In this document: piece by piece, positions 2,808 to 18,889 of the stretch
Position numbering within the stretch: position 1 is the first letter of the stretch
Layout of the letters: each line of letters starts with the position of its first letter
From: Arthrobacter oryzae
GTDB lineage: Bacteria > Actinomycetota > Actinomycetes > Actinomycetales > Micrococcaceae
Length of the DNA: 64,000 nucleotides
Assembly (NCBI RefSeq): GCF_003634095.1
Contig: NZ_RBIR01000001.1
Location: 124,001-188,000, forward strand
Reading direction: 5' to 3'
Position numbers and translations under genes: made by a program
The notes under the pieces: model-generated
Databases searched by the model: none
What the model saw: the letters and a program-made list of their open reading frames with translations, nothing else
What the model was told of the DNA's origin: nothing

Positions 2808-3313
2808 GTTCGTCCTCCGTCAAACAGTCCCAGGCCCGGCTGCGGCCCTTGCCCCCACGCTATGTGAAGAACGGCCAACTGTTTGCACGCAAGGGGTCCC
2901 GGCCGATCCCACCGTCGCAGCGTCGCGGGCAGATGCCGCCGGGTTTGGAGAACCAGCCAGGTTGGAGCGGAGATCAAAGGCCGCCGGCTCAATGCCGAGC
3001 CGGCCGGCAGTGTCGTCGCAAGGGACTTAGACGACCCGTGACGGCAGCTTAATTCGGTCCGCTGGCCCGTGCTGTCCGGCTGCGAGGATGGCTTCGGAGA
3101 CGGCGGGGCACACGCCCGATAAGGTCGATCCGATCCGTCAGAAACGGAGGTTGTTGGCCATTCGGAGCTACCCCCATCAACGCGGTTCAAGTGCGTCAGC
3201 CGACCGACTTCGAAAAAGGGCCAACTAAGTTGGAACAACCGCTCATTGAAGCGATCGAAAGTTCCCGCGAACACTGGGGTCAATTATGGAGATTTGTATA
3301 GATAGATCGGAAT
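2808..3313. other. Intergenic stretch without a supportable gene
   Basis: Reading frames here are short and lack ribosome sites. It holds only a small perfect palindrome CCAACT-A-AGTTGG at 3221-3233. It separates the chromosomal aldo/keto reductase from the repeat-rich left flank of the transposition module. Confidence 0.5.
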
Positions 3314-3407
3314 CTCACACTAAGTTCAAGAACGGGCATCCATTTGGAAGAACTTGTCGGCCTATTTGCAAGACTTGCAAATAGGCCGACTGTGAACTCG
3401 GTGTGAG
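3314..3407. repeat. Nested inverted repeat with a perfect 35-bp palindrome at its heart
   Basis: Inner palindrome 3356-3390: arms GTCGGCCTATTTGCAAG and its exact complement around one central base. Outer arms 3314-3328 (CTCACACTAAGTTCA) and 3393-3407 (complement with two mismatches). The inner arms contain CTATTTG, which recurs at 3416 and, as TATTTGGCG/TATTTAGCG, at 3633-3665. This suggests transposase-binding sites, possibly two abutted element ends. It could also form a cruciform or act as a strong bidirectional terminator. Confidence 0.8.
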
Positions 3408-3542
3408 GTTTCACGCTATTTGAACCTGTTCCGATTTACATGGAAAAGCGTCCCGATCTAGTTGAACCAGCGACTGATTCTGTGAGGTCGAAGGCTAGTT
3501 GGCGGTTTGAACGCTGGTTGGCGTAAGGGGACTAGTGGTTTG

Positions 3543-3568
3543 GTCTCACAACGATCGGTTAATGAGAC
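3543..3568. repeat. GTCTC...GAGAC dyad, resolvase-site-like
   Basis: An imperfect 26-bp dyad starting GTCTCACAAC and ending TTAATGAGAC. Its half sites match those of the dyad next to the resolvase at 6743-6772 (GTCTCGAAAA) and the GTCTCACAA sequences at 14499 and 18923. Read on the minus strand it lies about 97 bases beyond the CGCCAAATA repeats, the same arrangement as at the other two loci. Confidence 0.55.
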
Positions 3569-3632
3569 AGGCGGGCGGCCTTGCCCGGGCTTCGGGAGTT
3601 CCCGGCGCGGCAAGGATTGTAATTGTCCGCGG

Positions 3633-3665
3633 TATTTGGCGGGTATTTAGCGGCGCTATTTGGCG
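3633..3665 (-). repeat. CGCCAAATA repeats at the ATPase-side end of the transposition module
   Basis: On the plus strand TATTTGGCG occurs at 3633-3641 and 3657-3665 (24-bp period), with TATTTAGCG between them at 3644-3652. They directly abut the stop codon of the ATPase gene. The same CGCCAAATA motif with the same 24-bp spacing occurs at 14413-14454 and 18832-18873. Repeated short sites at element ends are typical transposase-binding sites of Tn7/Tn5053-type elements. Confidence 0.65.
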
Positions 3666-3668
3666 CGC

Positions 3669-4559
3669 TCATGTGCCGATCAGTAGGGTTTCGCGGGCGG
3701 TTTCGACGACTTCCTTGGTGATGCTGTGGAGCTGGTTGATGTCGCGGATGCGCGTGATCTGAGTGAAGAGGCGTTGGATGAGCCGGAAGTTGCCATTGGT
3801 GATGCGGGCGACAGCGGCGAGGGCTTCGGCATCGGTGAAGTCGTCGGGGTCGATGGTGAGGCCGAGTTCCTGCCAGCGGTTTGCCAGGACGAAGGTGAGT
3901 TCCTCGGTGCTGAGGGTCCGGTAGTGGTGGGCGAAGCCGATGCGGCTATAGAGCTGGGGGTAGCGGGCGAGGCGTTTTTCGATGCCGGGCATGCCGATAA
4001 GGATGACCCCCATGGTGTGGCGGTCGTAGTAGTCCCTGACCTGCTCGAGCGCTGGAGGTTTGAGCCGGTCGGCCTCGTCGATGATGAGGAGTTCGGTCAG
4101 GCCGGATGCCCGGGAGTCGCGGTGCTCAAAGATATCGATGTTGCCCTCCCGGGCGTATTCGACCGCCCAGGAAATTCTCTGGCAGATCCGAGGCAGTTGC
4201 CGGTCGATCTCTCGGGGGCTGATAGTCACGGTGGGGGTCCAGAACGCTGTTCTGGCCTCGAGCACACGGGCAGGGACGGGCTCGGTGTTGGTTTCACCGG
4301 TCCGTTGCCATTGTTCCCATTCGGTCGCACCGGCGTAGGCGCGTGCGGAGAGGGTCTTACCGACGCCGGGCGGCCCGTAGCAGACGCCGATGTGGCGGTT
4401 GGTGCGTACCGCAGTGACGAATTCGATGAAGCGCCGATGCTCCTTGGTGATGAGAAATGCCGGCGTCTCGGGCGGGACCGGTGGCGGAGCGGCGGAAATT
4501 TCGCCGAGATTGTTGAAGAGGAAGCGGCGTCCGTCGTCATTCTCATCCTTGGCGGTCAT
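3669..4559 (-). CDS. tniB: TniB/TnsC-like AAA+ transposition ATPase
   Basis: A 296-residue ATP-binding partner of the upstream transposase. It shows Walker A GPPGVGKT, Walker B LLIIDEAD and a downstream arginine-containing AAA segment, as in TniB and MuB. In the family it selects or activates target DNA and stimulates the DDE transposase. The ATG at 4559 is preferred because AGAGGA sits seven bases upstream. An ATG at 4574 would add five residues but would overlap that ribosome site. It follows the transposase stop by about 20 bases and is clearly co-transcribed. The stop codon touches the CGCCAAATA repeats. Confidence 0.85.
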   Translation of the reverse strand: MTAKDENDDGRRFLFNNLGEISAAPPPVPPETPAFLITKEHRRFIEFVTAVRTNRHIGVCYGPPGVGKTLSARAYAGATEWEQWQRTGETNTEPVPARVLEARTAFWTPTVTISPREIDRQLPRICQRISWAVEYAREGNIDIFEHRDSRASGLTELLIIDEADRLKPPALEQVRDYYDRHTMGVILIGMPGIEKRLARYPQLYSRIGFAHHYRTLSTEELTFVLANRWQELGLTIDPDDFTDAEALAAVARITNGNFRLIQRLFTQITRIRDINQLHSITKEVVETARETLLIGT

Positions 4560-4577
4560 GGGCGTTCCTCTCATGGG

Positions 4578-6029
4578 TCAGTCTTCGGCGTAGGTGCGGA
4601 GCCGATGCCGTTTTGGATCCGCGGGTCGCCCACCGGTTTCGGCAGGTTCGGCGGATGCCGGCGCTGCGTACCGGTCGTCGGCGGGGAGTGCGTCGGCCAG
4701 GCTGAGTTTGGTGCGCAGCTGCTTCTTCAGTTCGTTCCGACGTGCTGATCGGGCCGCCTTGAGCTGCTTGAAGGTGACAGAACCGGCGGCGAGTTCCGGG
4801 GCGATGGCACGGCAGAGGAACGTGTCTTGGTGCCAGACGCGGATCTCGGCCATGTCACGGGGGCTATAGCGGATGGTGACGCTCTCTCCGACGAAAGCGG
4901 AAAGTGTGAGGTCCAGGTAGCGCAGGCCATTGAATTGAATGCCGTCGCGGTGGACGATGCGCTGGTGTGCGACGGTCAGGAGCAGAAGGTCAAGGTCCTC
5001 GGGCCGGGCTGGCATTCTGGGGATCCATCCGCCGGCCTGCCAACGTGCTGTGGGGATCTCTCCGGTTTCGGAGTGCGTGCGCTGGTTGTACTCGTCAACG
5101 ATGAACCGCTCGAGCGCGGTGTCGAGCTGTTCGAGGGTCATCGTCGGTGCCGTCACCGGGATCCCGCGGGTGCCGTGCGGGATGAAGCCGGGCAGGTGCG
5201 GCAGGAGCCCGTCGGTGAGGGTGCGATAGAACCGCTCGATCTTCCCGCGGCCCTGCGGCACGCCGGGGAGGGAATGGATGAGGCGGATGTGGGTGTCAAG
5301 GCAGACGCGATCGAGGTGGGTGCTGGTGAAATCGGCGCCGTGATCGCTGTAGAGGAGATCGGGCAGACCCATGACGGGCCAGGCCGGATGCTTCTTGCGC
5401 TGCACGGCCTGGTGAAGGGCCAGTGCCGTCTGGAGCGCGGTCGGCGCACCGGTGAAGACGGTGTAGCCCGCGACGGCGCGGGAGTAGTCATCGAGTACGA
5501 CGGTCAGCCACGGGCGCGCGCGGGCGCCGCCGGCGTCGACGATCTCGATGTCCAACTCCGTGTGGTCGCACTGCCACTGCTCGTTCGCGCGGCTGGCGGT
5601 GCGCCGGTAGACCAGCTCGAACCGGTCACGGTATGCGGCGTCGCCTTCGAGCGCGATGGTGCGCAGTCCGGGATCGATGGCGGCAACGACCGCTCGGACC
5701 GTCGAGTAGCCGGGGGCGGGAAGGCCGCGGTCGAGCGCGACGTCACCGATCCGCCGGTGGATGAACGCTATGGTCGGCGCCGGCCGGCGGAGCGCGAGGC
5801 CTTCGATCGCGCCCACGATTTCGGGCGGGAGCGAATGACTCCCGCGGTCCGAGCGTGGCTGGCGGACCAGGGCCTCGACCGAGCCGCAGGCGCGGAATTC
5901 TGCCGTCCACCGTTGCAGCGTGCGGAGGGGGATGTCGGCCTGACTGGAGATCCGGGCGAGGGGAACACCGTCATCGAGGTGCTGCCGGAGCAGTGCCGCG
6001 CGGTCTTCGGCCGACAGCCGATGCTTCAT
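4578..6029 (-). CDS. tniA: DDE transposase, TniA/Mu A-like (rve integrase core)
   Basis: A 483-residue transposase. The N-terminus has helix-turn-helix DNA-binding segments (residues 1-120; for example ISSQADIPLRTLQRW). The catalytic core shows Asp155 (WQCDHTELD), Asp229 (LLYSDHGADF) and Glu265 (GRGKIERFYRT). Asp229 and Glu265 are separated by exactly 35 residues, an intact DD35E triad. A beta-barrel-like domain and a basic tail (residues 350-483) follow, where the ATPase partner is contacted in MuA/TniA. Its ATG overlaps the resolvase stop by four bases. No frameshift is seen, so the module may be active. Confidence 0.9.
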   Translation of the reverse strand: MKHRLSAEDRAALLRQHLDDGVPLARISSQADIPLRTLQRWTAEFRACGSVEALVRQPRSDRGSHSLPPEIVGAIEGLALRRPAPTIAFIHRRIGDVALDRGLPAPGYSTVRAVVAAIDPGLRTIALEGDAAYRDRFELVYRRTASRANEQWQCDHTELDIEIVDAGGARARPWLTVVLDDYSRAVAGYTVFTGAPTALQTALALHQAVQRKKHPAWPVMGLPDLLYSDHGADFTSTHLDRVCLDTHIRLIHSLPGVPQGRGKIERFYRTLTDGLLPHLPGFIPHGTRGIPVTAPTMTLEQLDTALERFIVDEYNQRTHSETGEIPTARWQAGGWIPRMPARPEDLDLLLLTVAHQRIVHRDGIQFNGLRYLDLTLSAFVGESVTIRYSPRDMAEIRVWHQDTFLCRAIAPELAAGSVTFKQLKAARSARRNELKKQLRTKLSLADALPADDRYAAPASAEPAETGGRPADPKRHRLRTYAED

Positions 6030-6613
6030 AACCGGCGGTCTTCGGCCGCCTGACGGTGGCGGTAGAGCGTCGCGCGGCTCCAGCCGACAAGTCGGGCCGC
6101 GTCCTCAGCGGAGCGACCCTTCGCGCGTGCATCCTGGGCGATCGCGAGCTTATCGGCGATAACGAGCGGGTCGGACAGGGGCCGGCCGAACCGGGTTCCG
6201 CCCTGCCGCGCCGCGGCGATGCCCGCGTTCACGCGTTCGACGATCAGCTCCCGCTCGTACTCGGCAAGGGTCGCGAGCATGTTCAGCATCAGGCGGCCCG
6301 ACGTTGTTGTGGGGTCAATTCCGTCCGAGATGGACCTCAAGTTCACACCGCGCTCCCGCAGCAGGTTCACCGTGTTCAACACATCGATCAAGGACCGGCC
6401 GAGCCGGTCCACCCGCCACACGACGACGGTGTCCCCCGGCTCCACATACGCGAGGAGCTTTTTCATCCCGGGCCGCTCAATAGCGGCCTTGCTCCCGGAC
6501 GTGACGTCGGCGAACACATCGCGTTTCTGAACCCCGGCGTCGACAAGTGCATCGAGCTGCAACTTCGCGTCCTGGCCCGACGTACTCACCCGCGTATACC
6601 CGAGATGTCTCAC
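6026..6613 (-). CDS. tniR: Serine resolvase of the transposition module
   Basis: A 195-residue small serine recombinase. The N-terminal motif YTRVSTSGQD carries the nucleophile Ser10. The core includes VWRVDRLGRSLIDVL and EYERELIVERVNAG, and a C-terminal helix-turn-helix ends in SRATLYRHRQ. The GTG at 6613 gives the canonical resolvase N-terminus; a longer in-frame extension upstream would run into the res dyads and is rejected. It is the first gene of the operon and overlaps the transposase start. Its expected role is to resolve cointegrates at the dyads just upstream. Confidence 0.9.
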   Translation of the reverse strand: MRHLGYTRVSTSGQDAKLQLDALVDAGVQKRDVFADVTSGSKAAIERPGMKKLLAYVEPGDTVVVWRVDRLGRSLIDVLNTVNLLRERGVNLRSISDGIDPTTTSGRLMLNMLATLAEYERELIVERVNAGIAAARQGGTRFGRPLSDPLVIADKLAIAQDARAKGRSAEDAARLVGWSRATLYRHRQAAEDRRL

Positions 6614-6677
6614 CCGGCCATTGTGCCTCAGAAACCCCCGTCCGGCACGCGCCTGAGACGATTCACGGTGAGACATC
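6604..6677. repeat. Inverted GATGTCTCACC / GGTGAGACATC pair at resolvase start
   Basis: Perfect 11-bp inverted arms at 6604-6614 and 6667-6677 flank the resolvase initiation region. They share the GTCTC core with the neighbouring 6743 dyad. This is consistent with resolvase-binding subsites of a res locus that also autoregulates the gene. Confidence 0.6.
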
Positions 6678-6742
6678 TTTCCAAGACACGGGGCGGCCCG
6701 ACAGGACGCCGATTCCTTCGACCCTCCGGGACACGACGTCCG

Positions 6743-6772
6743 TGTCTCGAAAAACTGTTGCTTTTCGAGACA
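6743..6772. repeat. 30-bp dyad, probable res crossover subsite
   Basis: TGTCTCGAAAA and its exact complement TTTTCGAGACA flank an 8-base spacer. The overall length (30 bp) and symmetry fit a serine-resolvase subsite. It lies about 130 bases upstream of the resolvase gene. The stretch from here to 7043 holds no further gene. Confidence 0.65.
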
Positions 6773-7043
6773 ACCCATCCCGGGCTCGTCGCCAGTCAGC
6801 TGTCCCACTCCTTGGCGCTGCCGGATGTCGGAACTCGGACGCCGCGCTCGTCGTCGTGGCGACCGTCGCGCTGCTGACCAGTCGCAGCAGTGATATACAG
6901 ACGCTGGCCCGTGGAGGCCGATGCGACGGCCTCGCGCGATGAGCGCCCGATAGGTGTAATGACAGTTCCTCCCTTCTTCCGTCGAGCACGCGTAGCGTCG
7001 GAGGCGGGAATGACCGGTTCTCGCTTATCTCAGGAGGGATTGC

Positions 7044-7364
7044 ATGGCACAGGAGAAGAGTCGGGCGCAGCAGTTGGTGGGGGACATCGCGCCGAAGTTG
7101 GCGGAGCTGACCGACGAGGTGTTGTTCGGCGATGTGTGGGCGCGCCCCGGGCTCTCGCCGCGGGATCGCAGTCTGATCACCGTCGCAACGCTCACGGCAC
7201 TCGGACGCACCGATCAGCTCCGGTCCCATCTGGGTCTGGCGCTGGACAACGGCGTGACCCAGGAGGAGCTGGCCGAGCTCGCTACCCACCTCGCCTTCTA
7301 CGCCGGTTGGCCGGCCGGGATGAGCGCTGCCACGACGCTCAAGCAGGTCCTCGATGCCCGCTGA
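7044..7364 (+). CDS. Carboxymuconolactone decarboxylase family protein
   Basis: A 106-residue all-helical protein with the family signature WARPGLSPRDRSLITVATLTALGRTDQLRSH and the C-terminal HLAFYAGWPA segment. It contains no cysteine, so it is of the decarboxylase type rather than the AhpD peroxidase type. The gene is preceded by AGGAGGG with ideal spacing and starts a four-gene operon. Such stand-alone CMD proteins often sit beside cupins and hydrolases in catabolic or detoxification clusters. The true substrate is unknown. Confidence 0.88.
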   Translation: MAQEKSRAQQLVGDIAPKLAELTDEVLFGDVWARPGLSPRDRSLITVATLTALGRTDQLRSHLGLALDNGVTQEELAELATHLAFYAGWPAGMSAATTLKQVLDAR

Positions 7365-7803
7365 CGATGTGAGCGAGGACCCGATGGTCGTCCTGCCCGC
7401 GCCCGCCACGGTGAAGGCGGCGGCGGACCGGTTCACGGGCGACGTGTGGGTAGATGGCATCACGAACGGTGCCGGTCCTGGCACGGCGACGCTCGCGGCC
7501 GTGCGTTTCTCGCCGGGCGCGCGCACCGCGTGGCACCGCCACGCGAATGGCCAAACCCTGCATGTGACCGACGGCCGCGGGATCGTTTGCAGCCGCGACG
7601 GGCATGCGATCGCCATGAAACCCGGAGATACCGTTTACACCCCGCCTGGCATCTGGCACTGGCACGGCGCGGCGCCCGATTCGTTCATGACGCACCTCGC
7701 ACTCTCCGTCGCCGGCGGCGATGTCGAATGGGACGAGCACGTCAATGATGACGAGTACACCAACGCCACAGCCAGTGTTGAGGCCAAGAGTAGGACCCGA
7801 TGA
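7354..7803 (+). CDS. Cupin-domain protein
   Basis: A 149-residue single-domain cupin. The metal-site motifs are visible as WHRHANGQTLHV and the second motif GDTVYTPPGIWHWHG. The start codon lies inside the end of the CMD gene (11-base overlap), and the stop overlaps the next start by four bases, so translation is probably coupled. Small cupins of this type bind a divalent metal and act as isomerases, dioxygenases or stress proteins. CMD-cupin pairs are common in actinobacteria. Confidence 0.88.
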   Translation: MPADDVSEDPMVVLPAPATVKAAADRFTGDVWVDGITNGAGPGTATLAAVRFSPGARTAWHRHANGQTLHVTDGRGIVCSRDGHAIAMKPGDTVYTPPGIWHWHGAAPDSFMTHLALSVAGGDVEWDEHVNDDEYTNATASVEAKSRTR

Positions 7804-8831
7804 TGGTCGAGGATGCGAGAGCATCCGGGGAGCCTGCCGCTCCGCTGGCGATCGCGGCGCAAGGCAGCTTCGCCGTCGGCGGCGCCATCGTGACCAGGGA
7901 CGGAAGCTTTGACCCTCGGAACCCGATGGATCCTGCCGGGCAGACGCTGCACGGCGACCACGCCCGTGTCAGCTATCAGGTCCCGGTTGCTGCGCGCCCG
8001 TTGCCGCTGCTGTTCTGGCACGGCTGGTGGGTGGACAGCAGTTGCTGGGACACCACACCTGACGGTCGTGAAGGGTTCCGCACCTTGTTCCTACGCCGCG
8101 GGTACGGTGTGTATCTGCTTGATCAGCCCCGGCGCGGTTCGGCGGGCAAGACGACGAGGGCCGCCGAGATCAGCACCGGGCCGAACGAGCAGTGGTTCTT
8201 CAACCAGTTCCGCCTCGGTCTGTGGCCGGACCTGTACGAGGGAGGCCAGTTCTCCTCCGATCCGGCGGCGTTGGAGCAGTTCTTCCGGGCGATGGTGCCC
8301 GACACCGGCCCGTTGGACACCGAAGTGATCGTCGCGGGGGCATCAGCGGCGATCGACCGCATCGGTCCGTTGGTGCTGGTCACGCACTCCCACGCCGGCG
8401 GTTTCGGGTGGCTCGCCCGGCTGCGCAACGACAACGTGCGCGCGGTCGTCAGCATCGAACCCGGCAGCGGGTTCGTCTTCCCCGAGGGCGAGCTGCCCGG
8501 GACGATGCCCAGCTCGAACGGCACGCTGGAGCCGGTGTCCATTCCGCTCGAAGAGTTCGAGGCGCTGACGCGGGTGCCGATCATCGTCTACTACGGCGAC
8601 AACATCCCGACCGCGCCGACCGACATCGCCGGCCGCGACAACTGGCGTGTGCGCGTGGAGATGGCCCGCATCTGGGTCGACACGATCAACCGCCACGGTG
8701 GCGACGCGACGTTCGTGTCGCTGCCGGAGCGGGGCATTCACGGCAACACCCACTTCGCATTCAGCGACCTCAACAACCACGAGATCGCCGACCAGATCGC
8801 GGCGTTCCTCGCCGCGAAGAAGCTCGACTGA
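7800..8831 (+). CDS. Alpha/beta hydrolase (esterase-like)
   Basis: A 343-residue alpha/beta hydrolase. The oxyanion loop is LLFWHGWW (about residues 70-77). The nucleophile elbow is VTHSHAGG with Ser197, in which the usual first Gly of GxSxG is Thr. A candidate acid follows in VSIEPGSG (Glu220), with a histidine in RGIHGNTHF. No signal peptide is seen, although related proteins are often secreted. It overlaps the cupin gene by four bases. The substrate is unknown; its place between a cupin and a second hydrolase suggests a short catabolic or detoxification route. Confidence 0.85.
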   Translation: MMVEDARASGEPAAPLAIAAQGSFAVGGAIVTRDGSFDPRNPMDPAGQTLHGDHARVSYQVPVAARPLPLLFWHGWWVDSSCWDTTPDGREGFRTLFLRRGYGVYLLDQPRRGSAGKTTRAAEISTGPNEQWFFNQFRLGLWPDLYEGGQFSSDPAALEQFFRAMVPDTGPLDTEVIVAGASAAIDRIGPLVLVTHSHAGGFGWLARLRNDNVRAVVSIEPGSGFVFPEGELPGTMPSSNGTLEPVSIPLEEFEALTRVPIIVYYGDNIPTAPTDIAGRDNWRVRVEMARIWVDTINRHGGDATFVSLPERGIHGNTHFAFSDLNNHEIADQIAAFLAAKKLD

Positions 8832-8925
8832 TCACCGATCAGTCAGGGCCGCCCGGGCGCGACGACGACGGCGCGAGAAGCAGCAACCGTCCCGGCCCGG
8901 GCATCCGAGTGAAAAGGAGATGAAC

Positions 8926-9948
8926 ATGAACGACACGAACTTCGCCGCGGAAGCGGGGCCGGTGCACGACTACCGTCAGAACCCGTTCGGCCTCGTCTAC
9001 GAGTACGCCATCACGGAGAACGAGCCGGGGAAGGTCAACATCCACCCCGTCAATTACATGTTGCGTGGGCTGAACATCGCCGCAAACGTCTACACCCCGG
9101 CAGGCTACGACCCGACCGGCAAGTATCCGGCGATCACTGTGGCCCACCCCAACGGTGGCACCAAGGAGCAGGTCGCCGGCCGGTACGCGCAGCGCCTCGC
9201 GGAGCAGGGCTACATCACGGTCACCGCGGACGCCGCCTACCAGGGACACAGTGAGGGCGAGCCCCGCAGCGTGGACAAGCCCTTCTTCCGCACCGACGAC
9301 ATTCACGGCATGGCCGACTTCATCGCCGGTTTCCCGGGCGTGGACGCCGACCGGCTGGGCGCACTGGGCATCTGCGGCGGCGGCGGGTACACGTTGAAGG
9401 CGGCCCAGTCCGACAAGCGCTTCAAGTCGGTCGCCACGGTGAGCATGTTCAACTCCGGCCGCGTCCGACGCAACGGCCTCCAGGACTCGGCACTGGACAC
9501 CATCCAGGACCGGCTGCGGCAGGCATCCGCTGCCCGCGCCCAGGAAGCTGCCGGCGGCGAAGTCCTCTACGCCGGGGATGCTGACCTGACGGACGAGCAG
9601 ATCGCGGCCCTGCCGTTCGACCTGTACCGGCAGGGCTACAAGTACTACTGGGGGACTCACGCCTGCCCGGGCTCGACCTTCAAGTACACGCTGAGCAGCC
9701 TGCTGGACCTGATGGCCTTTGACGCTACCGACCAGCTCCAGCTCATCGACGTGCCGTTGCTGATGATCGCCGGAAGCGAAGCCGACACGAAATATATGAG
9801 CGAGGACGCGATCCCGAAGGCGACCGGCACCGAGGATAAAGAGCTGTTCCTCATCGAGGGCGCCCGGCACATCGAAACGTACTGGATCGACAAGTACGTG
9901 GATGCTGCGCTGGAGAAGCTTGTGGCCTTCTACGCCAGAAGCATCTAG
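8926..9948 (+). CDS. Dienelactone-hydrolase-like alpha/beta hydrolase with cysteine nucleophile
   Basis: A 340-residue protein related to YcjY/dienelactone hydrolase-type enzymes. The nucleophile elbow reads LGICGGGGY, placing Cys150 where serine hydrolases have Ser. The acid lies in the IAGSEADT region and the histidine in EGARHIETYW. The ATG at 8926 has AAGGAG six bases upstream; an ATG six bases earlier lies within that ribosome site. It is the last gene of the 7.0-9.9 kb operon, about 95 bases after the preceding stop. The function is not assigned. Confidence 0.87.
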   Translation: MNDTNFAAEAGPVHDYRQNPFGLVYEYAITENEPGKVNIHPVNYMLRGLNIAANVYTPAGYDPTGKYPAITVAHPNGGTKEQVAGRYAQRLAEQGYITVTADAAYQGHSEGEPRSVDKPFFRTDDIHGMADFIAGFPGVDADRLGALGICGGGGYTLKAAQSDKRFKSVATVSMFNSGRVRRNGLQDSALDTIQDRLRQASAARAQEAAGGEVLYAGDADLTDEQIAALPFDLYRQGYKYYWGTHACPGSTFKYTLSSLLDLMAFDATDQLQLIDVPLLMIAGSEADTKYMSEDAIPKATGTEDKELFLIEGARHIETYWIDKYVDAALEKLVAFYARSI

Positions 9949-10174
9949 ACGCAACAGAAAAGCCCCGGCGACGCCGCAGCCTGGATCAGGTGAGGGCGCC
10001 GCTGCCGCGCAGGGCGACACGGGACTGCGGTGTTCCCTCCGTTCGCCAGGCCCTCAAGCATCGGCGCGAAAGCTCTCGCGTGAGCCGGTTTGGCTGCCAC
10101 GAAGTCCACTGCGAGAACCCACACCCACGTCGGCGCGCCCGTCACGGAAACCGGGAACCGGTTGGTTGGCGGGA

Positions 10175-10900
10175 TCAGCCTGTGGCGCGTGGTCGATCTT
10201 GAAGGAGTCCGGTGCGGCGCAGCCAGGATTCGATGGCCGGTCCGGCGTCGCGGACTTCCTCCCCCCGCACTGCGAGTCCTTCGCCGATGGTCGCTCCGGG
10301 GCAGGATCCGGCGTAGTCCCTTTCGGTGGTGCCGAGTCCGCTCATGGCGTGGGTGGTGACGGGGTGGATGGATTTTCCGCTGAAGTCGTGGCTTTCGGTG
10401 AATGTCGTCATGATCATGGGTGCCCGGACGTTCCAGATGCCGCTGGCCAGCAGCACGGTGTCGTACTGGTCGATGGAGGGCAGATGGTTGACGATGGCCG
10501 GCCGGGCGTTGGTGTTTTGTTCGCGGACGTTCCGTGCCACGGTGGCGTCGTAGCTGTCCGGGTAGGGATCGACGGCTTCGATGCGGTGCACGTCGCACTT
10601 AATGAGTTTGCTGATGGCATCGGCCAGGACCTGGGTGTTGCCGACGTCGAGGCTGGTGCGGCCCCCGTAGAAGTAGTTCTCCCCGGCACGGGAGAAGTAG
10701 GCCAGCAGAACCCGTCCGCCATTTCCGGGACCCGGAATCCCCTGGGCGGAGCCGAGGGTGGTTGGGTTTGGGGGCATGGGCGTGTTCCTTTCGTCCGGTG
10801 CGCAGGCTGATGTGCCGGTAGCGATCATGGCAGCGCCCAGCCCGGTGGCAGCGGAGTGCAGGACCGAGCGCCGGCCAATAGTTCGTGGATTTGTGGTCAT
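10175..10900 (-). CDS. Flavodoxin-fold lipoprotein, Tat-exported
   Basis: A 241-residue protein. The N-terminus has a twin-arginine motif (GRRSVLH), a hydrophobic stretch and a lipobox-like TSAC, so it is probably a Tat-exported lipoprotein. The mature part is flavodoxin-like: VLLAYFSRAGEN is the phosphate-binding loop, followed by SGIWNVRAPMIMTTF and a C-terminal GEEV region. The ATG at 10900 begins the signal peptide; an in-frame start further upstream would add a non-signal leader. It lies downstream of an aldo/keto reductase with a hairpin between them. Related proteins are FMN-dependent reductases with unknown partners. Confidence 0.85.
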   Translation of the reverse strand: MTTNPRTIGRRSVLHSAATGLGAAMIATGTSACAPDERNTPMPPNPTTLGSAQGIPGPGNGGRVLLAYFSRAGENYFYGGRTSLDVGNTQVLADAISKLIKCDVHRIEAVDPYPDSYDATVARNVREQNTNARPAIVNHLPSIDQYDTVLLASGIWNVRAPMIMTTFTESHDFSGKSIHPVTTHAMSGLGTTERDYAGSCPGATIGEGLAVRGEEVRDAGPAIESWLRRTGLLQDRPRATG

Positions 10901-10996
10901 CACGGGTCTCCGGGTCGGGTGAAGGGCCAGCGTTGGCATCCCTGCTCGCGGTTTAGGGTGCGTTTCAAGGTGCGGCCACGGCCCGGTGCGGACACT

Positions 10997-11031
10997 GTCC
11001 GTTGGGGTGACCGGCCGTCACCCCAACGGAC
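10997..11031. terminator. Strong hairpin between aldo/keto reductase and flavodoxin genes
   Basis: Perfect 15-bp arms (GTCCGTTGGGGTGAC and complement) enclose a five-base loop, 12 bases beyond the minus-strand stop at 11043. No clear T-run follows, but GC-rich hairpins commonly end transcripts in actinobacteria. It separates the two minus-strand genes. Confidence 0.7.
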
Positions 11032-11042
11032 GGAGGGTCCGT

Positions 11043-11900
11043 TTAGTTGTAGCGGCGTCCTCCCAGCCAGCTGACCATGGCGGGGTCGCGGTGGTCGAAG
11101 AAGAGGCTGGCACCGGTGTCCAGGGTCGCGATCTGGCTCATCTGCTCCTCCGTGAGCTCGAAGCCGAAGACGTCGAGGTTCTCGGCCATCCGATCGGGCC
11201 GGACGGATTTGGGGATGACGACCACCTCGCGCTGGATGAGCCAGCGGAGCACCACCTGGGCGACAGACTTGCCGTGGGCCTCTGCGATGGCGCTGAGGAC
11301 CGGATCGGTGAAGAGGTTGTTCTTGCCCTCGGCGAAGGGGCCCCAGGACTCGATCTGGACGCCGCGTTCGCGCATCAGCGCCTGGTCGGCGGCGCGCTGG
11401 TGGAAGGGGTGGGTCTCGATCTGGTTGACGGCCGGGACGATCTCGTTGTGGTCGATGAGGTCCACCAGCCGGTCGGGGTGGAAGTTGGACACGCCGATGG
11501 CACGGGCCAGGCCTTCCTTGTGGAGATCCTGCATGGCCCGCCACTCGCTGTAGTAGTCCCCGAGCGGCTGGTGGATCAGGTACAGGTCGAGATAGTCCAG
11601 TCCGAGCCTGCTGAGTGAGTTTTCAAAGGCGCGCCTGGTGTCGTCCTGGACGCTGCCGGTCGGGGCGTGCTGGATCCAGAGCTTGGTGGTGATGAAGAGG
11701 TCCTCGCGGGCGATTCCGCTGGCCTTGATCGCGGCGCCGACGGCGGCCTCGTTGCCGTAGGAGGCGGCCGTGTCCAGATGGCGGTACCCGGCGGCGAGGG
11801 CGGCCTCGACGGCGGCCTGGGTTTCGTCGTCGGGAATCTGGAAGACGCCAAAGCCCAGGATGGGCATCTGGACGCCGTTGTTGAGGGTGACGGTCTGCAT
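11043..11900 (-). CDS. Aldo/keto reductase (2,5-diketo-D-gluconate reductase-like)
   Basis: A 285-residue AKR5-type reductase. The tetrad is [10 protein letters not shown] (Asp, Tyr), ITTKLWI (Lys) and [12 protein letters not shown] (His), with the cofactor motif [14 protein letters not shown]. The ATG at 11900 follows AAAGGAA. The frame stays open upstream for over 100 codons, but those residues read as a shadow of the MFS gene. It lies about 80 bases downstream of the MFS transporter on the same strand and may share its transcript. Confidence 0.9.
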
Positions 11901-11982
11901 GGGGTTCCTTTGTGCGGGTGTGCGGGTTATGGGTTGGTTTAGGGACGGGGTCGTGGCGGGGGCTGTGGTTCTGGGACCGTCC

Positions 11983-13356
11983 TTAGTGCTGTGGTCGTTT
12001 CGCGTGCCGTAGTCGCAGGGACGCGGCGATGAGGATGAGCAGGACGACGGCAGTGATGCCGAGACCAAGGCGGAGCCCGTCCATGAAGTCGTGCCCGGCG
12101 AGCAGGGCGCCATAGATCGCGACCCCGAGGGAGCCTCCGACCTGCCGGGCGGTATTGACGACTCCGCTGGCGGTCCCGGCCCGTTCCGCGGGCACGTCGT
12201 CCATGACGAGAGCGATGATCGGGGGAACGGTGAAGGACCCGCCGACGCCGACGGGAACCATGACGAGCGCCACGGCCAGGACCGGGGCATCGGCGGGTAG
12301 CAGCCACAGTCCGGCCAGGCCCAGGGCCATGAGTAGTTGGCCGGCGGCGATCATGGCCACGTTGCCGTAGCGGGCCATCAACCGGGCGGCCAAGGGGTTG
12401 AGGAGGGCGACGAGGCCGGTCATCGGAAGGAACAGCAGCCCGGTTTCCAGCGCCGTGGCGCCGCGTTGCTGCTGGAAGTAGAGGCTCTGGAGGAAGACCA
12501 CGCCGTAGAAGGCGGCCATCGTGACGACGGCGATTGCCAGGGTGGTGGAGACCGTGCGTGAGCGGAACAGGTCCAGCGGGACCATGGGGTGTTTTCCGCG
12601 GGCCTGCGCCAGCACGAAGACGGCCGCCGATGCCGCGGACACGGCGAACAGGGTGAGGATTCCGGGGTTTCCGTAGCCGACTTCCGCGCCTTCGATGATG
12701 CCGTAGGTCAGGCTGGCCAGGGCCAGCACGGCGGTGACCTGCCCGACCCAGTCAAAGGGTGTCGGACGCCGGGGCGACGGCATGACGCGGGCGAGCACGA
12801 ACAGTGCTGCCGCCCCGACGGGAAGGTTGACGAAGAAGATCAGCCGCCAGTCGAGCTGGGTGAGGACGCCGCCGAGCACCGGGCCGGCCGCCGCGGCGAC
12901 GGAGCCGCCCAGTCCCCAGTACACGATGGCCCTCCCGCGCTGGGCCGCGTCGTGGTACGCCTCCCGGATGAGCGCAAGGGAGCTGGGGGTGATCATCGCC
13001 GCGCCGATGCCCTGCAGGATGCGGCCGGCGATGAGTACCTGGAGATTCGGGCTGAGCCCGCATGCCAGGGACGCAACGGTGAACAGGATCATGCCGAGGC
13101 CGTAGGCGCGTCGTGCCCCTGCCCGGTCGGAGAAGGTCCCGGAGAAGAGTTGCAGGGCCGAAAACATCAGGGTGTAGCCGGTGACGATCCATTGCAGGCC
13201 GGACAGGCCGCCCCCGAGGTCGTTCCGGATCGCGGGCAGGGCGACGTTGACGATCTGGGCATCCAGGGCAACAACGAAGAATCCCAGCATGGCGACCGCC
13301 AGCGAGGCGCGCGGCCGGGCCGCTGTTTGCGAAGGGCTGAGCGTGGATACAGACAT
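11983..13356 (-). CDS. MFS efflux transporter, DHA2-like
   Basis: A 457-residue integral membrane protein with about 14 hydrophobic segments. DHA-type signatures include [16 protein letters not shown] in helix 1, [16 protein letters not shown] after helix 2, the helix-4 [10 protein letters not shown] and the helix-5 [24 protein letters not shown] antiporter motif. The family exports drugs or toxic small molecules by proton antiport. It is divergent from the MmyB-like regulator gene, with a 130-bp shared promoter region, which suggests direct control by that regulator. Confidence 0.92.
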
Positions 13357-13487
13357 GGTGTCCTTGCAGGATGGGGAAACTGGACTCCTTCAAGACAACC
13401 AGCCAATTCCTGCGCGCGGCAGTGCCTCTTGTGCGGTGTACTGGCAGTTCCTGTTAGGCCGGACCGGGCCGCCGTAGCGTAGAGGCC

Positions 13488-14411
13488 ATGGAGAACAGTA
13501 AAGACGTCCGCGAGTTCCTCATGAGCCGGCGGTCACGCATCACTCCGGCCCAGGCCGGGCTGCCCGCCTACGGCGGAACCAGGAGGGTGGCCGGCCTCAA
13601 ACGCGAGGAAGTCGCCATGCTCACCGGCGTCAGCACCGAATACTATGCCCGGCTAGAACGCGGGAACCTGCGGGGAGTCTCCGAAAGCGTCCTCGAATCC
13701 CTCGCCGGCGCCCTCCGGCTCGATGAGGCTGAACGGGCCCACCTGCTCGACCTCGCCAGGGCAGCCGGGCCAGCGCGGGCGCCGGGAACACGCCGTGTGA
13801 GGGCGGAACTGCGGCCCAGCGTTCAGCGGATCCTGGCCGGAATGACCGGCACGCCCGCCTACGTCCGTAACTCACGCATGGACATCCTGGCCGCAAACAG
13901 CCTCTGCTTCGCACTCTACGACGGCATCCTCAGCCCCGAGACGCTGCCCCTGAACCTCGCACGGTTCATGTTCCTGGACCCACGCTCCCAAGACTTCTTT
14001 CTCGAATGGGACACCCTCGCTGATGACCTCGCCGCCGCGCTCCGCACCGAAGCAGGCCGCAACCCGCGCGACAGGGCCCTGAACAGCCTCATTGGTGACC
14101 TCGCCACGGGAAGCACCGAATTCTCCACCCGCTGGGCACGGCACAACGTCCGCTTCCACCGCTCGGCGACCAAGACACTGCACAACCCGCTCGTTGGAGA
14201 CATAGAACTCACCGGCGATTCCCTCGAACTCCCCGGCGAGGATCTGACCCTCATCGCCTACACCGCCGAACCCGGATCCCATGCCCAGGAACAACTCGAC
14301 TTCCTCACCAGCTGGAACATAACCGGAAAACGTCCGGCAGAACCGACTCCAGCCAACGCACACACCCCAACGACCCCGCCAACTGAAGGCGAGTCGCAGG
14401 ACCGGCCATGA
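13488..14411 (+). CDS. XRE-family regulator with MmyB-like ligand domain
   Basis: A 307-residue regulator. The N-terminal helix-turn-helix (about residues 20-85) includes RVAGLKREEVAMLTGVSTEYYARLERG. The C-terminal MmyB-like LBD contains LAANSLCFALYDGIL and the HNVRFHRSATKTLHNPLVGDIEL signature. These regulators usually repress a divergent transporter or oxidoreductase. Its stop (14409-14411) is immediately followed by the CGCCAAATA repeats of a decayed transposon end, so the proline- and threonine-rich C-terminal tail could have been altered by insertion. Confidence 0.9.
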   Translation: MENSKDVREFLMSRRSRITPAQAGLPAYGGTRRVAGLKREEVAMLTGVSTEYYARLERGNLRGVSESVLESLAGALRLDEAERAHLLDLARAAGPARAPGTRRVRAELRPSVQRILAGMTGTPAYVRNSRMDILAANSLCFALYDGILSPETLPLNLARFMFLDPRSQDFFLEWDTLADDLAAALRTEAGRNPRDRALNSLIGDLATGSTEFSTRWARHNVRFHRSATKTLHNPLVGDIELTGDSLELPGEDLTLIAYTAEPGSHAQEQLDFLTSWNITGKRPAEPTPANAHTPTTPPTEGESQDRP

Positions 14412-14454
14412 GCGCCAAATATCGCTGCGAATAACACGCCAAATATCTCTGCGA
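14412..14454 (+). repeat. CGCCAAATA direct repeats (transposon-end module copy 2)
   Basis: Two 18-bp copies at 14413-14430 and 14437-14454 differ at one base and are spaced 24 bp. The same motif and spacing occur at 3633-3665 (minus orientation) and 18832-18873. Here they lead into a res-like segment and a complete serine resolvase gene. Confidence 0.75.
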
Positions 14455-14460
14455 TTCACA

Positions 14461-14547
14461 GTCCTGGATTGTCTCGATATGCCGTCTAACAACCAGTAGT
14501 CTCACAATGGCAAATTGCTCGGGAATAAGAGAATAATGAGGGCGGCT
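14461..14547 (+). repeat. res-like region upstream of resolvase, duplicated at 18890-18970
   Basis: It contains a GTCTCACAA half-site at 14499-14507 and AAGAGAAT before the resolvase start. The segment from GCCGTCTAACAAC to the start codon matches 18904-18970 at roughly three bases in four, by eye. It is probably the recombination site and promoter of the resolvase. Confidence 0.6.
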
Positions 14548-15096
14548 ATGGCTGTGATCGGGTACGCGAGGGTTTCCACGACGGAACAGAACCTTGACCT
14601 GCAGCTCACGGCACTTCAGGCCGCTGGCGCAGCCCGGACCTTTGCCGACAACGGAGTCAGCGGTTCCACGGTGGAACGTCCTCAGCTCTCCAAAGCCCTC
14701 GACCGGCTTGAAGCTGGTGACGTGCTCACCGTGTGGAAGCTCGACCGTCTTGGCCGAAACACCCGGCACGTCCTGGACCTCATCGAGAAGGTCCGGGCAC
14801 AGGGCGCAGGTTTCCGGTCCCTGACCGAGGGACTGGACACCACGGGGCCCATGGGCACTGCCATGTTGACGATCATGGCCGCATTCGCACAACTGGAGCG
14901 CGACACCATGATCGAACGCACCAGGGCAGGACTCGCCGCGGCCGCCGCCAACAACCGCCACGGCGGCAGGCCACGCAAGGTCGATGACGTTGCCGCTGCC
15001 AGGGCCAAGGAGCTTAAGGGCAAAGGAGTCAACGCCTCCGATATCGGCAAGATGCTCGGAGTCTCCCGCGCAACCGTCTACCGGTACCTTGCATAG
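14548..15096 (+). CDS. Serine resolvase/invertase (Tn3-type)
   Basis: A 182-residue serine recombinase. Ser10 lies in YARVSTTEQNLDLQ. The core has VWKLDRLGRNTRHVLDL, GPMGTAMLTIMAAFAQLERDTMIERT and a C-terminal helix-turn-helix ending GVSRATVYRYLA. The ATG at 14548 has GAGG five bases before it and gives the standard length; an ATG at 14536 is less suitable. No transposase accompanies it, so it is either an orphan from a decayed element or a stand-alone resolution system. Its sequence differs clearly from the resolvase at 6026-6613. Confidence 0.92.
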   Translation: MAVIGYARVSTTEQNLDLQLTALQAAGAARTFADNGVSGSTVERPQLSKALDRLEAGDVLTVWKLDRLGRNTRHVLDLIEKVRAQGAGFRSLTEGLDTTGPMGTAMLTIMAAFAQLERDTMIERTRAGLAAAAANNRHGGRPRKVDDVAAARAKELKGKGVNASDIGKMLGVSRATVYRYLA

Positions 15097-15296
15097 GCAA
15101 TACGGAGAGGGGCTCCGGCACCCCGCCGACACCCAAACGGGCGCCCGTCACGGTCAGGCAGGTCGCTTCGAGCAGGTGACGTTCTGGCCTGCCGAACCTT
15201 CGGGCCGTTCCGCCAGCGATTCTGATGTTCGAACGCTCAGAGACTGAAGCCGTGTCGCAGGACGCCCAGTGGCTGGACGGCTGTTACTGCTAAGGG

Positions 15297-15815
15297 CTAG
15301 GGCCGATTCAGAGCCGTGTACTCGGCCCCCAGTTCCTTTGCGAGTTTCTGCAGGTCCTTGCCGCTGGCCGGCGCATGCAATGCCTCGGACGTGTCTACGA
15401 CCAGCCAGTTCTTGCCAGACACGACAGAGACGGGCTGGGTTTTGGCGTCTGCGTATACCTGGTAGTCCGCTTTCCGGCCCGCTTCATCCTTGAACCAGTC
15501 GATCTGGACGTGGCCCGAGCACACGGCGGATTCGGCTTTGATCCCTTTCTCGTCCAGGGCCTTGTTGATGATCGGATCGGTCGTGGGCTTCTTCTCGCAG
15601 CCCAGGACTTTGTCAACGGCGTGGAGGGCATCGTCGAGGGAGCCGAATTCGGGTAGTCCCTGATCTACCGACTGCTGTGCAGCTGGCTGTTGCGTTGCTG
15701 GCTGTTGCGTTGCTGGCTGTTGTACAGCTGCCGGCTGTCCAGCGGCCGCGCAACTTGAAAGCAGGCACCCCAGCGCCAGAGCGGCGGCGGCATTCCTGTA
15801 TTTGAGCTTGCCCAT
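15297..15815 (-). CDS. Secreted lipoprotein of unknown function
   Basis: A 172-residue protein with a lipoprotein signal (KLKYRNAAAALALGCLLSSC) and then a low-complexity linker of repeated QPATQQPA units encoded by 15-base DNA repeats. The C-terminal domain (about 110 residues) is unassigned and has two cysteines that could pair (VLGCEKK, SAVCSGH). The start at 15815 places the signal peptide at the N-terminus; frames open further upstream would bury it. The lipid anchor and linker place it on the outer face of the membrane. Confidence 0.75.
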   Translation of the reverse strand: MGKLKYRNAAAALALGCLLSSCAAAGQPAAVQQPATQQPATQQPAAQQSVDQGLPEFGSLDDALHAVDKVLGCEKKPTTDPIINKALDEKGIKAESAVCSGHVQIDWFKDEAGRKADYQVYADAKTQPVSVVSGKNWLVVDTSEALHAPASGKDLQKLAKELGAEYTALNRP

Positions 15816-16356
15816 CGTCTTCAGGCCCCCACTTGTTTCGCTGAAATTATCCTGACTGCTGGTTGAAAAGTAACACATAAAGGGTATGTGAAAAACGATT
15901 CATAAAATCGGTTTACTTTCCCGATGTCTCTGGCCTTGGCCTGGCGTGTCCCGTTCACGTTAGGGCCGTGCTGCCCGACTTGCCTGGAGTGTTCAGCGCC
16001 ACGAGATGGTACTCAGAACGCCTCTTTTGAATACCGCACCATCGGAGCCCTTGACCATGCAACGGTAGCTGTGGAGCGGCCTAAGCGGGACAGTTTTGCG
16101 GGCGGGGTGTACGCGAATTTCGGATTCCAGCATCTGTATGGGATTTTTCGCGGCGGGAGATCGGGCCGAGGGTGTCGCGGTGGGGGACCGGCTTACGGGC
16201 AAGTCTGTACGGACGGGGTGCGAGACATGATTCGCCGTGTTTCGAGGGTGGTGGGTGCCCGGAGGGGTGCCGTCGATGGTTCGGGCCACTTCTTGCCTCC
16301 CGTTCACCCCCTCTCAGTTGGGGGAAGACAGCGAGAGGTGCCTGTAAGAATGGGGC
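15816..16356. other. Gene-free stretch within the accessory region
   Basis: The 540 bases hold open frames on both strands, but none shows a ribosome site, a family motif or natural composition. AT-rich sequence at 15840-15920 probably carries the promoter of the lipoprotein gene. The rest looks like eroded coding DNA. Confidence 0.4.
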
Positions 16357-17079
16357 ATGCCTCCACATAATTTTCCGATCAGACGGGTGGCTGAAGACCC
16401 GGCCCACCTTCTCGGCCGCGGTCGGTGGCCGGGTGCCCTGGCCCCTGTCGCCCAGGTTCTCGACCAGGGGCTCGATCTGACTCCGGCCACTATCTTCGTC
16501 GGTGAAAATGGGTCGGGAAAATCCACTCTCGTGGAAGCCATCGCGCTGGCTTATGGCTTGTCTCCTGAAGGCGGATCTACAGGGGCCCGCCACAGCACTA
16601 GATCTACCGAATCCATACTCGCCGATCACTTGCAGCTCGTCCGGAACGCCGGCGCCACAAGACGCGGCTACTTCCTGCGGGCGGAGACAATGCACGGCTT
16701 CTTCACTTACCTCGAGAAGAACCCGAGCACGTCCGGTCCGGACATCTCGTTCCACGACATGTCACACGGCGAATCGTTCTTGGAACTGGCGGTGGATCGT
16801 TTCCGAGGACGTGGATTGTGGGTGCTCGATGAACCGGAATCGGCGCTCTCCTTCGCCGGATGCCTCAGCCTCCTCACTGTCTTGAAAGATCTCCTCGCCG
16901 AAGGCTCCTCACAGGTCATCATGTCAACACACTCGCCTGTCCTCGCAGCACTTCCCGGCGCGCAGATTCTCGAAGTCGGCCCGTGGGGACTTCGGCAGCA
17001 GAAATGGTCCGACCTCGATCTGGTTTCCAACTGGCGGTCGTTCCTGGACTCGCCTGAAAGATACCTGCGCCACCTTTAG
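16357..17079 (+). CDS. Stand-alone ABC-type AAA ATPase
   Basis: A 240-residue P-loop ATPase. Walker A is FVGENGSGKSTLVEAIALAYG (about residues 47-67), the signature-like segment is DMSHGESFLELAVDRF, Walker B is LWVLDEPESALS and the H-loop is IMSTHSPVLAALPGA. This is the predicted-ATPase family related to Rad50/OLD-type AAA proteins, often found in mobile or defence regions and as small housekeeping paralogues. No membrane partner or nuclease gene is adjacent. The biological role is unknown. Confidence 0.88.
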   Translation: MPPHNFPIRRVAEDPAHLLGRGRWPGALAPVAQVLDQGLDLTPATIFVGENGSGKSTLVEAIALAYGLSPEGGSTGARHSTRSTESILADHLQLVRNAGATRRGYFLRAETMHGFFTYLEKNPSTSGPDISFHDMSHGESFLELAVDRFRGRGLWVLDEPESALSFAGCLSLLTVLKDLLAEGSSQVIMSTHSPVLAALPGAQILEVGPWGLRQQKWSDLDLVSNWRSFLDSPERYLRHL

Positions 17080-17168
17080 GGAAGGCCCGGTCAGGGATCG
17101 GCTTCCGAGCATCCCAGTCACTCGAGCGGCGATGAAAAAAGCAGCAACTGATGGACGACGCCGAGTCT

Positions 17169-17441
17169 TCAGCGCCCATCAGGCAGCCTTGATCTAAGTT
17201 CTTCTGCAAAGGAAGCGATGGCCTGACGCCGGTCTCGGGTAAATGCTTTCGCCTGCAGCTCCAGGACTGCCCGGCTGCCAAGCTCGCCCAAGCCCAACAG
17301 CTGACCCACCCGACGGATCGCTTCGTCCATGTCCTGTGAATCCTCGATCACCTTGAAGACCTCGTCCCGCCGATCCATCGCCTGCACCAGAGCCTCGTGG
17401 AGCATCAACTGCTGCCTCATCTGCCGCTCGTCCTCATCCAT
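17169..17441 (-). CDS. GyrA C-gate-like small protein
   Basis: A 90-residue helical protein beginning MDEDERQMRQQLMLHEALVQ. Its length aligns with the coiled-coil and C-gate part of DNA gyrase/topoisomerase IV subunit A. The order 'hLxALVxAhDxxDEVhxhIxxSxxxDEAhxxhxxLLGL' then 'ARAVLELQhxxhTRxxRxxIxxhxEELRxxL' matches GyrA's 'EGLLIALDNIDEVI...' and 'AQAILDMRLxRLT' helices. There is no catalytic tyrosine domain or DNA-wrapping domain. The ATG at 17441 (residue 8 of the longest frame) is preferred, but 17462 is possible. Function is unknown; binding to gyrase or DNA is conceivable. Confidence 0.75.
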   Translation of the reverse strand: MDEDERQMRQQLMLHEALVQAMDRRDEVFKVIEDSQDMDEAIRRVGQLLGLGELGSRAVLELQAKAFTRDRRQAIASFAEELRSRLPDGR

Positions 17442-17533
17442 GCGGCGATTCTCGCACGACAAAGGTAGAGGACATGAGGTCCCGGTAGGGGATCCCTCCG
17501 CGGGACGTTCGGTGTAATGGCAGACTGCTGGCT

Positions 17534-18388: not shown

Positions 18389-18438
18389 ACATGCACGATC
18401 AGGGATCCTCGTACGGGACGCTGGCGCCGAGTCTGGCT

Positions 18439-18861
18439 CTACCCGTTCTCACGTCCAGGAAGAGGGGCCCCGGCCAAGAATGCCTCATAGGCTTCGCGGG
18501 CGTCCTCTTCCACCATGGGTTGTTGAGAGCTGTAGCGGCCGTCAGTTCGGTCACGCTTGGGTCCTGAGAGCCAGTATTCCTCGCCCGAGTCGACGTCGTA
18601 GAAGTTTGAGTCGAAATTTGCGTGAGAAGTACCCGTCACCCGATGCAGTGTGCGCCCCTGAAAATACGCGGTGCGCCAGGTCTCACTGAAGCGCACGCGC
18701 GAGATCCAGGACGGTCCTTTGTCCGTTCCATGGCCTGTCTTCAGCTGGACGTACATGATGCGTTCATTCACCTGCTCAGAGTAGTGACACTTAGCGTCCC
18801 AGTCGACGATCCCTTCCGGGCCCCACCCGGGCGCCAAATAGCGCCGCAAGAAGACCGCCAT
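18439..18861 (-). CDS. Hypothetical protein with transposon-derived N-terminus
   Basis: A 140-residue frame with natural composition (for example IMYVQLKTGHGTDKGPSWISRVRFSETWRTAYFQGRTL) but no recognised family. Its first ten codons lie within the CGCCAAATA repeats at 18832-18873, so the start MAVFLRRYLAP appears to be supplied by a transposon end joined to an older coding sequence. The original gene was therefore probably longer. It may be a truncated pseudogene or a chimeric gene. Confidence 0.55.
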   Translation of the reverse strand: MAVFLRRYLAPGWGPEGIVDWDAKCHYSEQVNERIMYVQLKTGHGTDKGPSWISRVRFSETWRTAYFQGRTLHRVTGTSHANFDSNFYDVDSGEEYWLSGPKRDRTDGRYSSQQPMVEEDAREAYEAFLAGAPLPGRENG

Positions 18862-18873: not shown

Positions 18874-18889
18874 GTCACAGCAAGGATCG

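Follow-up and report, generated by a model that had tools for sequence, protein, structure and literature searches.

The transposon Tn7 inserts just downstream of glmS, with its right end adjoining the gene, and leaves a 5-bp duplication. The sites in its right end all run in one direction. In the available part of a survey of Tn7-like transposons, detection begins from tnsB (Benler et al. 2021, PMC8649781); a search designed as that part describes would therefore overlook ends that stand alone and elements devoid of tns genes. For the TniQ/TnsD target selectors, HTH domains are described in the accessible text of Faure et al. (2023, PMC10293859). Herein, we analysed a palindrome in a 64,000-nucleotide stretch of Arthrobacter oryzae DNA (the window, C1:124001-188000; positions given without a contig are those of the window). 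Very probably, it consists of the two innermost TnsB sites, mutually inverted, of a right end (RE) that belonged to a Tn7-like transposon whose group targets the 3' end of nrdF. This reading was drawn from the precise placement behind nrdF, the 5-bp duplications of two relatives, an array geometry common to related ends and linked tns genes, all of them visible in the DNA sequences compared.

The features of the locus are as follows.
3190-3319, minus strand: left end (LE) of a Tn7-like element with its body to the left (terminus TGTGAGATTCCGATC on the minus strand, ending at 3319)
3320-3390, plus strand: RE remnant of the TTGCAAG/TTGGAAG type (from the site spacing and the nearest match, G186)
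3356-3390, no strand: 35-bp palindrome in which sites 3 and 4 are set back to back, with the complementary flanks GTCGGC/GCCGAC
3391-3401, plus strand: 11-nt stub TGTGAACTCGG, read from the sequence
3402-3468, plus strand: RE remnant of the TTGAACC type (91-92% identity to G190, G088 and C1:110150 of the same genome)
3481-3550, plus strand: 70-bp unit of the TTGGCG type (TGTGAG on the left, CTCACA on the right)
3562-18930, no strand: tni transposon, left limit approximate and right limit uncertain (Pfam and end-like arrays)
3669-4574, minus strand: TniB-like ATPase (Pfam)
4578-6029, minus strand: TniA-like transposase (Pfam)
6026-6808, minus strand: resolvase (Pfam)

The palindrome was as perfect as the first-pass annotation had stated. 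All 17 of 17 pairs formed between the arms 3356-3372 and 3374-3390 around a 1-bp spacer (GTCGGCCTATTTGCAAG-A-CTTGCAAATAGGCCGAC). When 3300-3430 was folded as DNA, the energy was -27.9 kcal/mol, whereas shuffles averaged -12.4 (z -6.5) and 0/200 of them were equally stable; the hairpin folded as RNA reached -27.5 kcal/mol. With up to 3 mismatches allowed, the arm was found within the window at these two positions only (chance mean 0.08). The whole window contained two perfect palindromes whose arms were 12 bp or longer at spacers of 0-3 bp, at 3356-3390 and 32186-32224, and 15 first-order Markov resamplings of the window produced no arm of that length, the longest being 11. For the second of these, with 19-bp arms and a 1-bp spacer, no other copy was found in the genome. 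A search of Rfam gave no match to the palindrome and one sub-threshold match elsewhere, and plasmid BLAST with 3200-3700 returned two weak fragments only.

The palindrome closes an array of putative TnsB-type sites near a terminus, whose geometry is common to related ends. Three direct sites (3320-3330, 3340-3350 and 3362-3372) are followed by an inverted fourth (3374-3384). The spacing of the direct sites, 20 and 22 bp, is that of related RE arrays behind nrdF, in which the unit type reads TGTGAGATGTCGAC with sites at 15, 35 and 57 and an inverted site 1 bp past the third. The closest match of 3320-3390 lies behind nrdF in G186 (L014/L026; 77% over 79 nt). Considering that the first 14 nt of the RE, beginning with the TGTGAG kept in relatives, are absent from the window copy, which thereby lacks the intact TGT...ACA terminus of a Tn7-like transposon, we named it a remnant and not a working end. 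As we read it, the missing 14 nt were replaced by the left end of another element, ending at 3319. This LE is probably of the same type as the RE at C1:106842 of the same genome (TTGGCCA motif), an assignment based on its terminus and one GTTGGCC motif; a second copy was not found among the nrdF loci read.

To the right of the palindrome, the stub may be the start of another RE, and similar stubs of 11-20 nt stand ahead of the next TGTGAG in L121, L129 and L030. Copies of the TTGAACC-type RE lie directly behind nrdF in G190 and G088. The 70-bp unit at 3481-3550 is apparently an RE joined to a terminus with the cargo gone, on our reading a transposon cut down to its termini; RE-type matches were found in G087, G019, G126, G094, G110 and G131. 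The stack in the window is composed of three RE remnants and one left end. It had been suggested earlier that two element ends abut head to head here. The DNA is indeed transposon-end DNA, but the opposed parts are the third site and the inverted fourth site of one RE. Imperfect outer arms of 15 bp had also been described, and 3314-3328 and 3393-3407 do pair (13/15, by eye); however, we read them as junctions of different units and not as a single structure. In the left arm, the LE terminus (CTCACA, 3314-3319) would meet site 1, which starts at 3320; in the right arm, part of the stub would meet the terminus TGTGAG of the next unit (3402). Among ends with TTGCAAG/CTGCAAG sites (the window, L026, L208, L243 and L250), the outer arms differ and mostly still pair, as judged by eye.

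The gene at C1:105789-106760, which we take to be nrdF (ribonucleotide reductase beta chain) from its C-terminal sequence, is on the plus strand, and the palindrome lies 20.6 kb downstream with its array pointing away from the gene. Queried by BLAST with 3300-3520, the 198 genus genomes gave matches in 12, the source genome included. In 10 of the 11 others, the nrdF stop, located by the NTED(D/E)DWDF tail, was no more than about 130 bp from the match; in the eleventh, G019, the match shared the nrdF contig and lay approximately 19 kb downstream of the gene. In this genus nrdF is highly conserved, being found in 192/198 genomes at E 1e-150. We read 70 nrdF loci, comprising 10 picked for the window match and 60 taken, with some skipped, from the higher entries of the nrdF list; among those 60, G019 had also matched in the window BLAST.

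Within 400 bp past the stop of these 70 loci, with stubs included, no TGTGAG was present in 39, one in 20, two in 7, three in 1, four in 2 and five in 1. Many units carried several copies of a motif of their own, among them TTGGAAG, TTGGCCA, TTGGCG, TTGGCA and TTGACC. On the plus strand, TGTGAG occurred within 300 bp of the nrdF stop in 31/70 loci versus 138/4103 control windows from the same loci, and on the opposite strand in 1/70 versus 125/4103. Without the ten window-matched loci the plus-strand count was 21/60, and without G019 as well it was 20/59. Across the genus, an nrdF stop followed by 4-34 nt and TGTGAG was found in 37/198 genomes, against 0/198 for the reversed pattern. The distance was exactly 5 nt in 14 of these 37 and 4 nt in none. 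The A. oryzae genome is outside this count because 78 nt separate its nrdF stop from the nearest unit. A family sample gave 17/295 for the same pattern (4/24 in the same genus and 13/271 in six other genera; control 1/295), and 6/13 of the matches outside the genus were at exactly 5 nt. The locus had been called a possible recombination hot spot, and the stacked transposon ends linked to nrdF agree with that description. Target immunity among stacked units was also considered and is unproven: adjacent units shared a type in 0/9 pairs versus 1.8 expected, which was not significant (P 0.13; only units with two or more motif copies were counted).

The palindrome core CTANTTGNAAGNCTTNCAANTAG was then scanned exactly across 84,980 species genomes. 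It occurred in 11 stretches, where arithmetic on even base composition gives a chance expectation of about four. Eight were from Arthrobacter/Paenarthrobacter, and 8/8 of these were linked to nrdF: six within 283 bp of the stop, L208 at 4.4 kb downstream and L209, which shares a contig with L206, approximately 19 kb downstream. The remaining 3/11, from Clostridium, Enterococcus and Aliarcobacter, had no nrdF tail motif in the fetched stretch.

Comparison of 20 distinct related 35-mers revealed that pairs 1-7 formed in 15 to 20 of 20, pair 8 in 9/20, pairs 9-11 in 15 to 18 and pairs 12-17 in only 6 to 12, indicating that the perfection of the palindrome is not general; this set includes L233 3181, probably a chance match, and leaves out the ends with a 2-bp spacer, L243 and L250. 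By eye, another RE type behind nrdF, with CTGAGCA-like sites (L233, L235, L237, L239, L246 and L249), likewise ends in an abutting inverted site, and in L246 the arms of this inverted pair are lengthened into a long palindrome.

A rival reading would make the palindrome part of the adjoining tni module, either as a regulatory site of that module or as a head-to-head pair of its ends. In its favour, tniB is about 280 bp away, TGTGAG-like termini are found on both tni and Tn7-like elements, and the CTATTTG core is indeed common to the palindrome and the repeats at 3633-3665. We read those repeats as a tni end array because similar arrays exist at 14412-14445 and 18831-18879. The tni element, which we take to be of the Tn552/Tn5053 type, has its own end-like arrays (3618-3667 and, on the minus strand, the two just named) built on a different site, TATTTGGCG, and the palindrome is outside them. 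Moreover, nrdF-linked copies of the palindrome exist without tni genes, and the TniA and TniB of the window had no tblastn match (E 1e-3) in the 70 nrdF loci, among which arrays like that of the palindrome occur, the resolvase alone matching in three. A tni origin of the palindrome is consequently very unlikely in our judgement; the tni transposon is a separate element in the same island as the RE stack. A tni-type terminus, TGTGAGAC, is present on the minus strand at 14506 and 18930, and the tni-type ends at 14412-14506 and 18831-18930, each with this terminus and TATTTGGCG repeats, may be two right borders or two nested elements.

A host terminator or a cruciform-type regulatory hairpin unconnected with transposition would account for the stability of the hairpin given above, both as DNA and as RNA. 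It could also draw on a similar repeat followed by TTTTT in L239 and on the outer arms of L026, L208, L243 and L250, which diverge yet mostly pair. However, a T-tract is absent on both strands at the window palindrome, indicating that no canonical terminator exists at this locus. In the 250 nt past the nrdF stop, T-tailed hairpins were about equally common with an RE at 13 nt or less (7/38) and without one in 300 bp (6/39), and stems of at least 12 bp were rarer with an RE (16/38) than without (25/39). A terminator role thus found no support, and the host-hairpin reading explains neither the direct sites nor the TGTGAG terminus nor the target duplications. We give such a hairpin only a slight chance of being the explanation. 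That the inverted repeat caps the nrdF transcript in some relatives is a speculation that these counts do not support.

The Tn7-like reading also draws on elements bounded by two ends behind nrdF. In L232 (G152), a 3.3-kb element has a palindrome-type RE 5 nt past the nrdF stop, a TTGGAAG-type LE and an exact TCTTT duplication. Beyond the duplication there is pyrimidine-rich DNA and then a GC-rich inverted repeat, as behind unoccupied nrdF. The tns queries were unmatched in L232. Its LE is resembled by the LE at C1:110141 of the A. oryzae genome (by eye). In L241 (G408, another genus), a 307-bp mini-element with an exact TCCCG duplication is contained in the first 312 bases past the nrdF stop. 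At 49 loci, the pentanucleotide preceding the first TGTGAG was set against the one following each downstream CTCACA (90 comparisons), and a match was obtained in 2/49, L232 and L241, where about 0.1 would be expected under even bases; as the flank is pyrimidine-rich, TCTTT is weaker evidence than that figure implies. The search for target-site duplications that had been recommended earlier therefore had a divided outcome, with an exact 5-bp duplication in the relative L232 and none that is clean at the window locus itself, where GCCTA precedes the RE at C1:106842 and CTAAG follows the LE at 3319.

LE-like sequences were also seen on the minus strand 5-19 kb from nrdF, of the TTGGAAG type in L115 and L129 and of the TTGGCG type in L134, L145 and L153, and their type sometimes disagrees with that of the nearest RE. 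By eye, the cargo downstream of nrdF in L033, L134, L145 and L153 resembles defence genes, to which we assign the presumed names SIR2-like, type I restriction-modification, CD-NTase-like and DUF262-like.

Linkage of tns genes was assessed by setting PF09299 and NF033179 matches against the listed nrdF positions. Among these positions, at least six genomes had tns genes that shared the contig and strand of nrdF and followed it at 1.5 to 49 kb. TnsA/B/C-like sets were present in G107, G064, G087, G138, G006 and G035, and G026 had a partial set 16 kb from nrdF in which no tnsA was found. In G107 (L187), TnsA-, TnsB- and TnsC-like proteins and a 734-aa DUF4379 protein are encoded behind a TTGGCA-type RE. 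The profile matches were NF033179 at 1.9e-50, PF09299 at 2e-10 and PF05621 at 6e-14, and the protein in the TnsD position matched DUF4379 at 4.6e-78. Relatives of it occur in all seven genomes, where Pfam was run on L187 and the others were recognised by homology. Against the PDB, the TnsB profile retrieved TnsAB/TnsB chains at 5.7e-29 and Tn7 TnsB at 1.2e-9, the TnsC profile retrieved TnsC at 1.5e-7, and the TnsA profile retrieved nothing. A unit in which site-specific recombinase attachment sites, tyrosine or serine, replace DDE transposon ends is extremely improbable, for although the position behind a conserved gene is strict and such recombinase sites have inverted arms around a short core, integrases leave direct repeats of the core, whereas the termini of L232 and L241 are mutually inverted with a 5-bp duplication and TnsA/B/C-like genes lie downstream of nrdF in seven genomes, one set being partial.

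The genes tnsA, tnsB and tnsC were thus found in nrdF-linked relatives and not in the A. oryzae genome, which gave 0 matches to NF033179 and 0 to PF06527 and whose sole PF09299 match is the TniA of the window. None of the palindrome-type right ends examined had tnsABCD directly inside. Similar operons in G009, G131 and G109 are on contigs other than that of nrdF; the nrdF contig of G109 extends 391 kb further, so its operon is not near nrdF. G110 (265 kb from nrdF), G114 and G043 (the latter two in short stretches) had TnsABC genes without a match to the fourth protein. The pairing of operon to site motif was clear for L187 (TTGGCA) and, via its left end, L195 (TTGGCG) only. The tns operon of L231 (G138) has, in tandem, two proteins of the DUF4379 type that occupies the TnsD position. 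TniQ (PF06527) was tried as the transposition gene and rejected, being present in 31/198 genomes and absent from that of A. oryzae. Among the listed nrdF positions, TniQ was near nrdF in G170 and, as a sub-cut-off match 11 kb downstream, in G101, indicating that DUF4379-type operons are not alone at nrdF. In G170 (C1:4039597-4041493), the strand opposite to nrdF carries TniQ at 23 kb and PF09299 at 25 kb downstream, apparently from a different Tn7-like type.

On the Tn7-like reading, which we hold very probable, elements of this group use the nrdF 3' end as their attachment site. The RE, starting with TGTGAG, is inserted 5 bp past the nrdF stop with a 5-bp target duplication, as can be seen in relatives. 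Lineages with differing site motifs would arrive in turn, each insertion shifting older material outward, and deletions would strip most of the cargo and leave a stack of solo right ends; we infer this order from the arrangement. In A. oryzae, these events would have left the stack 20.6 kb from nrdF, with the LE of another element before it and the unrelated tni transposon after it. At an intact end, TnsB would probably bind the three direct sites and the inverted fourth, mark the RE and pair it with the LE, and the palindrome would be the head-to-head pair of TnsB sites. With the terminal 14 nt missing and no cognate tnsABC in the genome, the window copy should be inert.

A wider scheme is conceivable, although we regard it as rather doubtful. 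A zinc-ribbon DUF4379 TnsD would read the nrdF 3' end, and a superfamily served by it would insert exactly 5 bp past the stop in Arthrobacter and related genera. Mutually exclusive TnsB-motif lineages would stack, many non-autonomous cargo elements (with defence genes in some) would be moved in trans, the solo ends would form a fossil record, and the inner pair would cap the nrdF mRNA after its own terminator had been displaced.

Our literature search found no account joining Tn7-like transposons with nrdF, and a search for DUF4379 together with transposition, judged on titles and the start of abstracts, found nothing on nrdF targeting. For this group, nrdF would match the role of glmS for Tn7, as a further safe harbour whose target reader would be of a new kind and whose site is testable. 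The nrdF hot spot would also be a place to seek cargo, possibly including defence genes, in Arthrobacter and its relatives.

Compared with tni elements of the Tn552/Tn5053 type, the array is alike in its TGTGAG-like terminus and in tandem sites with a TATTTG core; it differs in that TniA, TniB, the resolvase and the other repeat are those of the tni element, which is not its source. The DUF4379 protein resembles the TniQ/TnsD selectors in the invariant CxxC and CxxH of its N-terminal part and in its operon position; unlike the selectors as the available part of PMC10293859 describes them, it has C-terminal DUF4379 repeats instead of HTH domains. The L187 protein had no PF06527 match, and profile comparison of its type with the TniQ of the genus was very weak (probability 2%, E 0.022). 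With Tn7 and Tn7-like transposons, so far as the accessible part of PMC8649781 describes them, the nrdF group shares tnsA, tnsB, tnsC, a gene in the TnsD position and arrays of ~20-bp TnsB sites near the ends. Like Tn7, the nrdF elements adjoin a conserved gene by the RE, with a 5-bp duplication in two relatives. Unlike Tn7, many nrdF copies are ends without tns genes in the stretch read, and the fourth RE site runs opposite to the third. The protein in the TnsD position bears DUF4379 zinc ribbons (by Pfam in L187 and by homology in the rest), the elements insert at nrdF, most often 5 bp after the stop codon, and differing RE types are stacked behind the gene.
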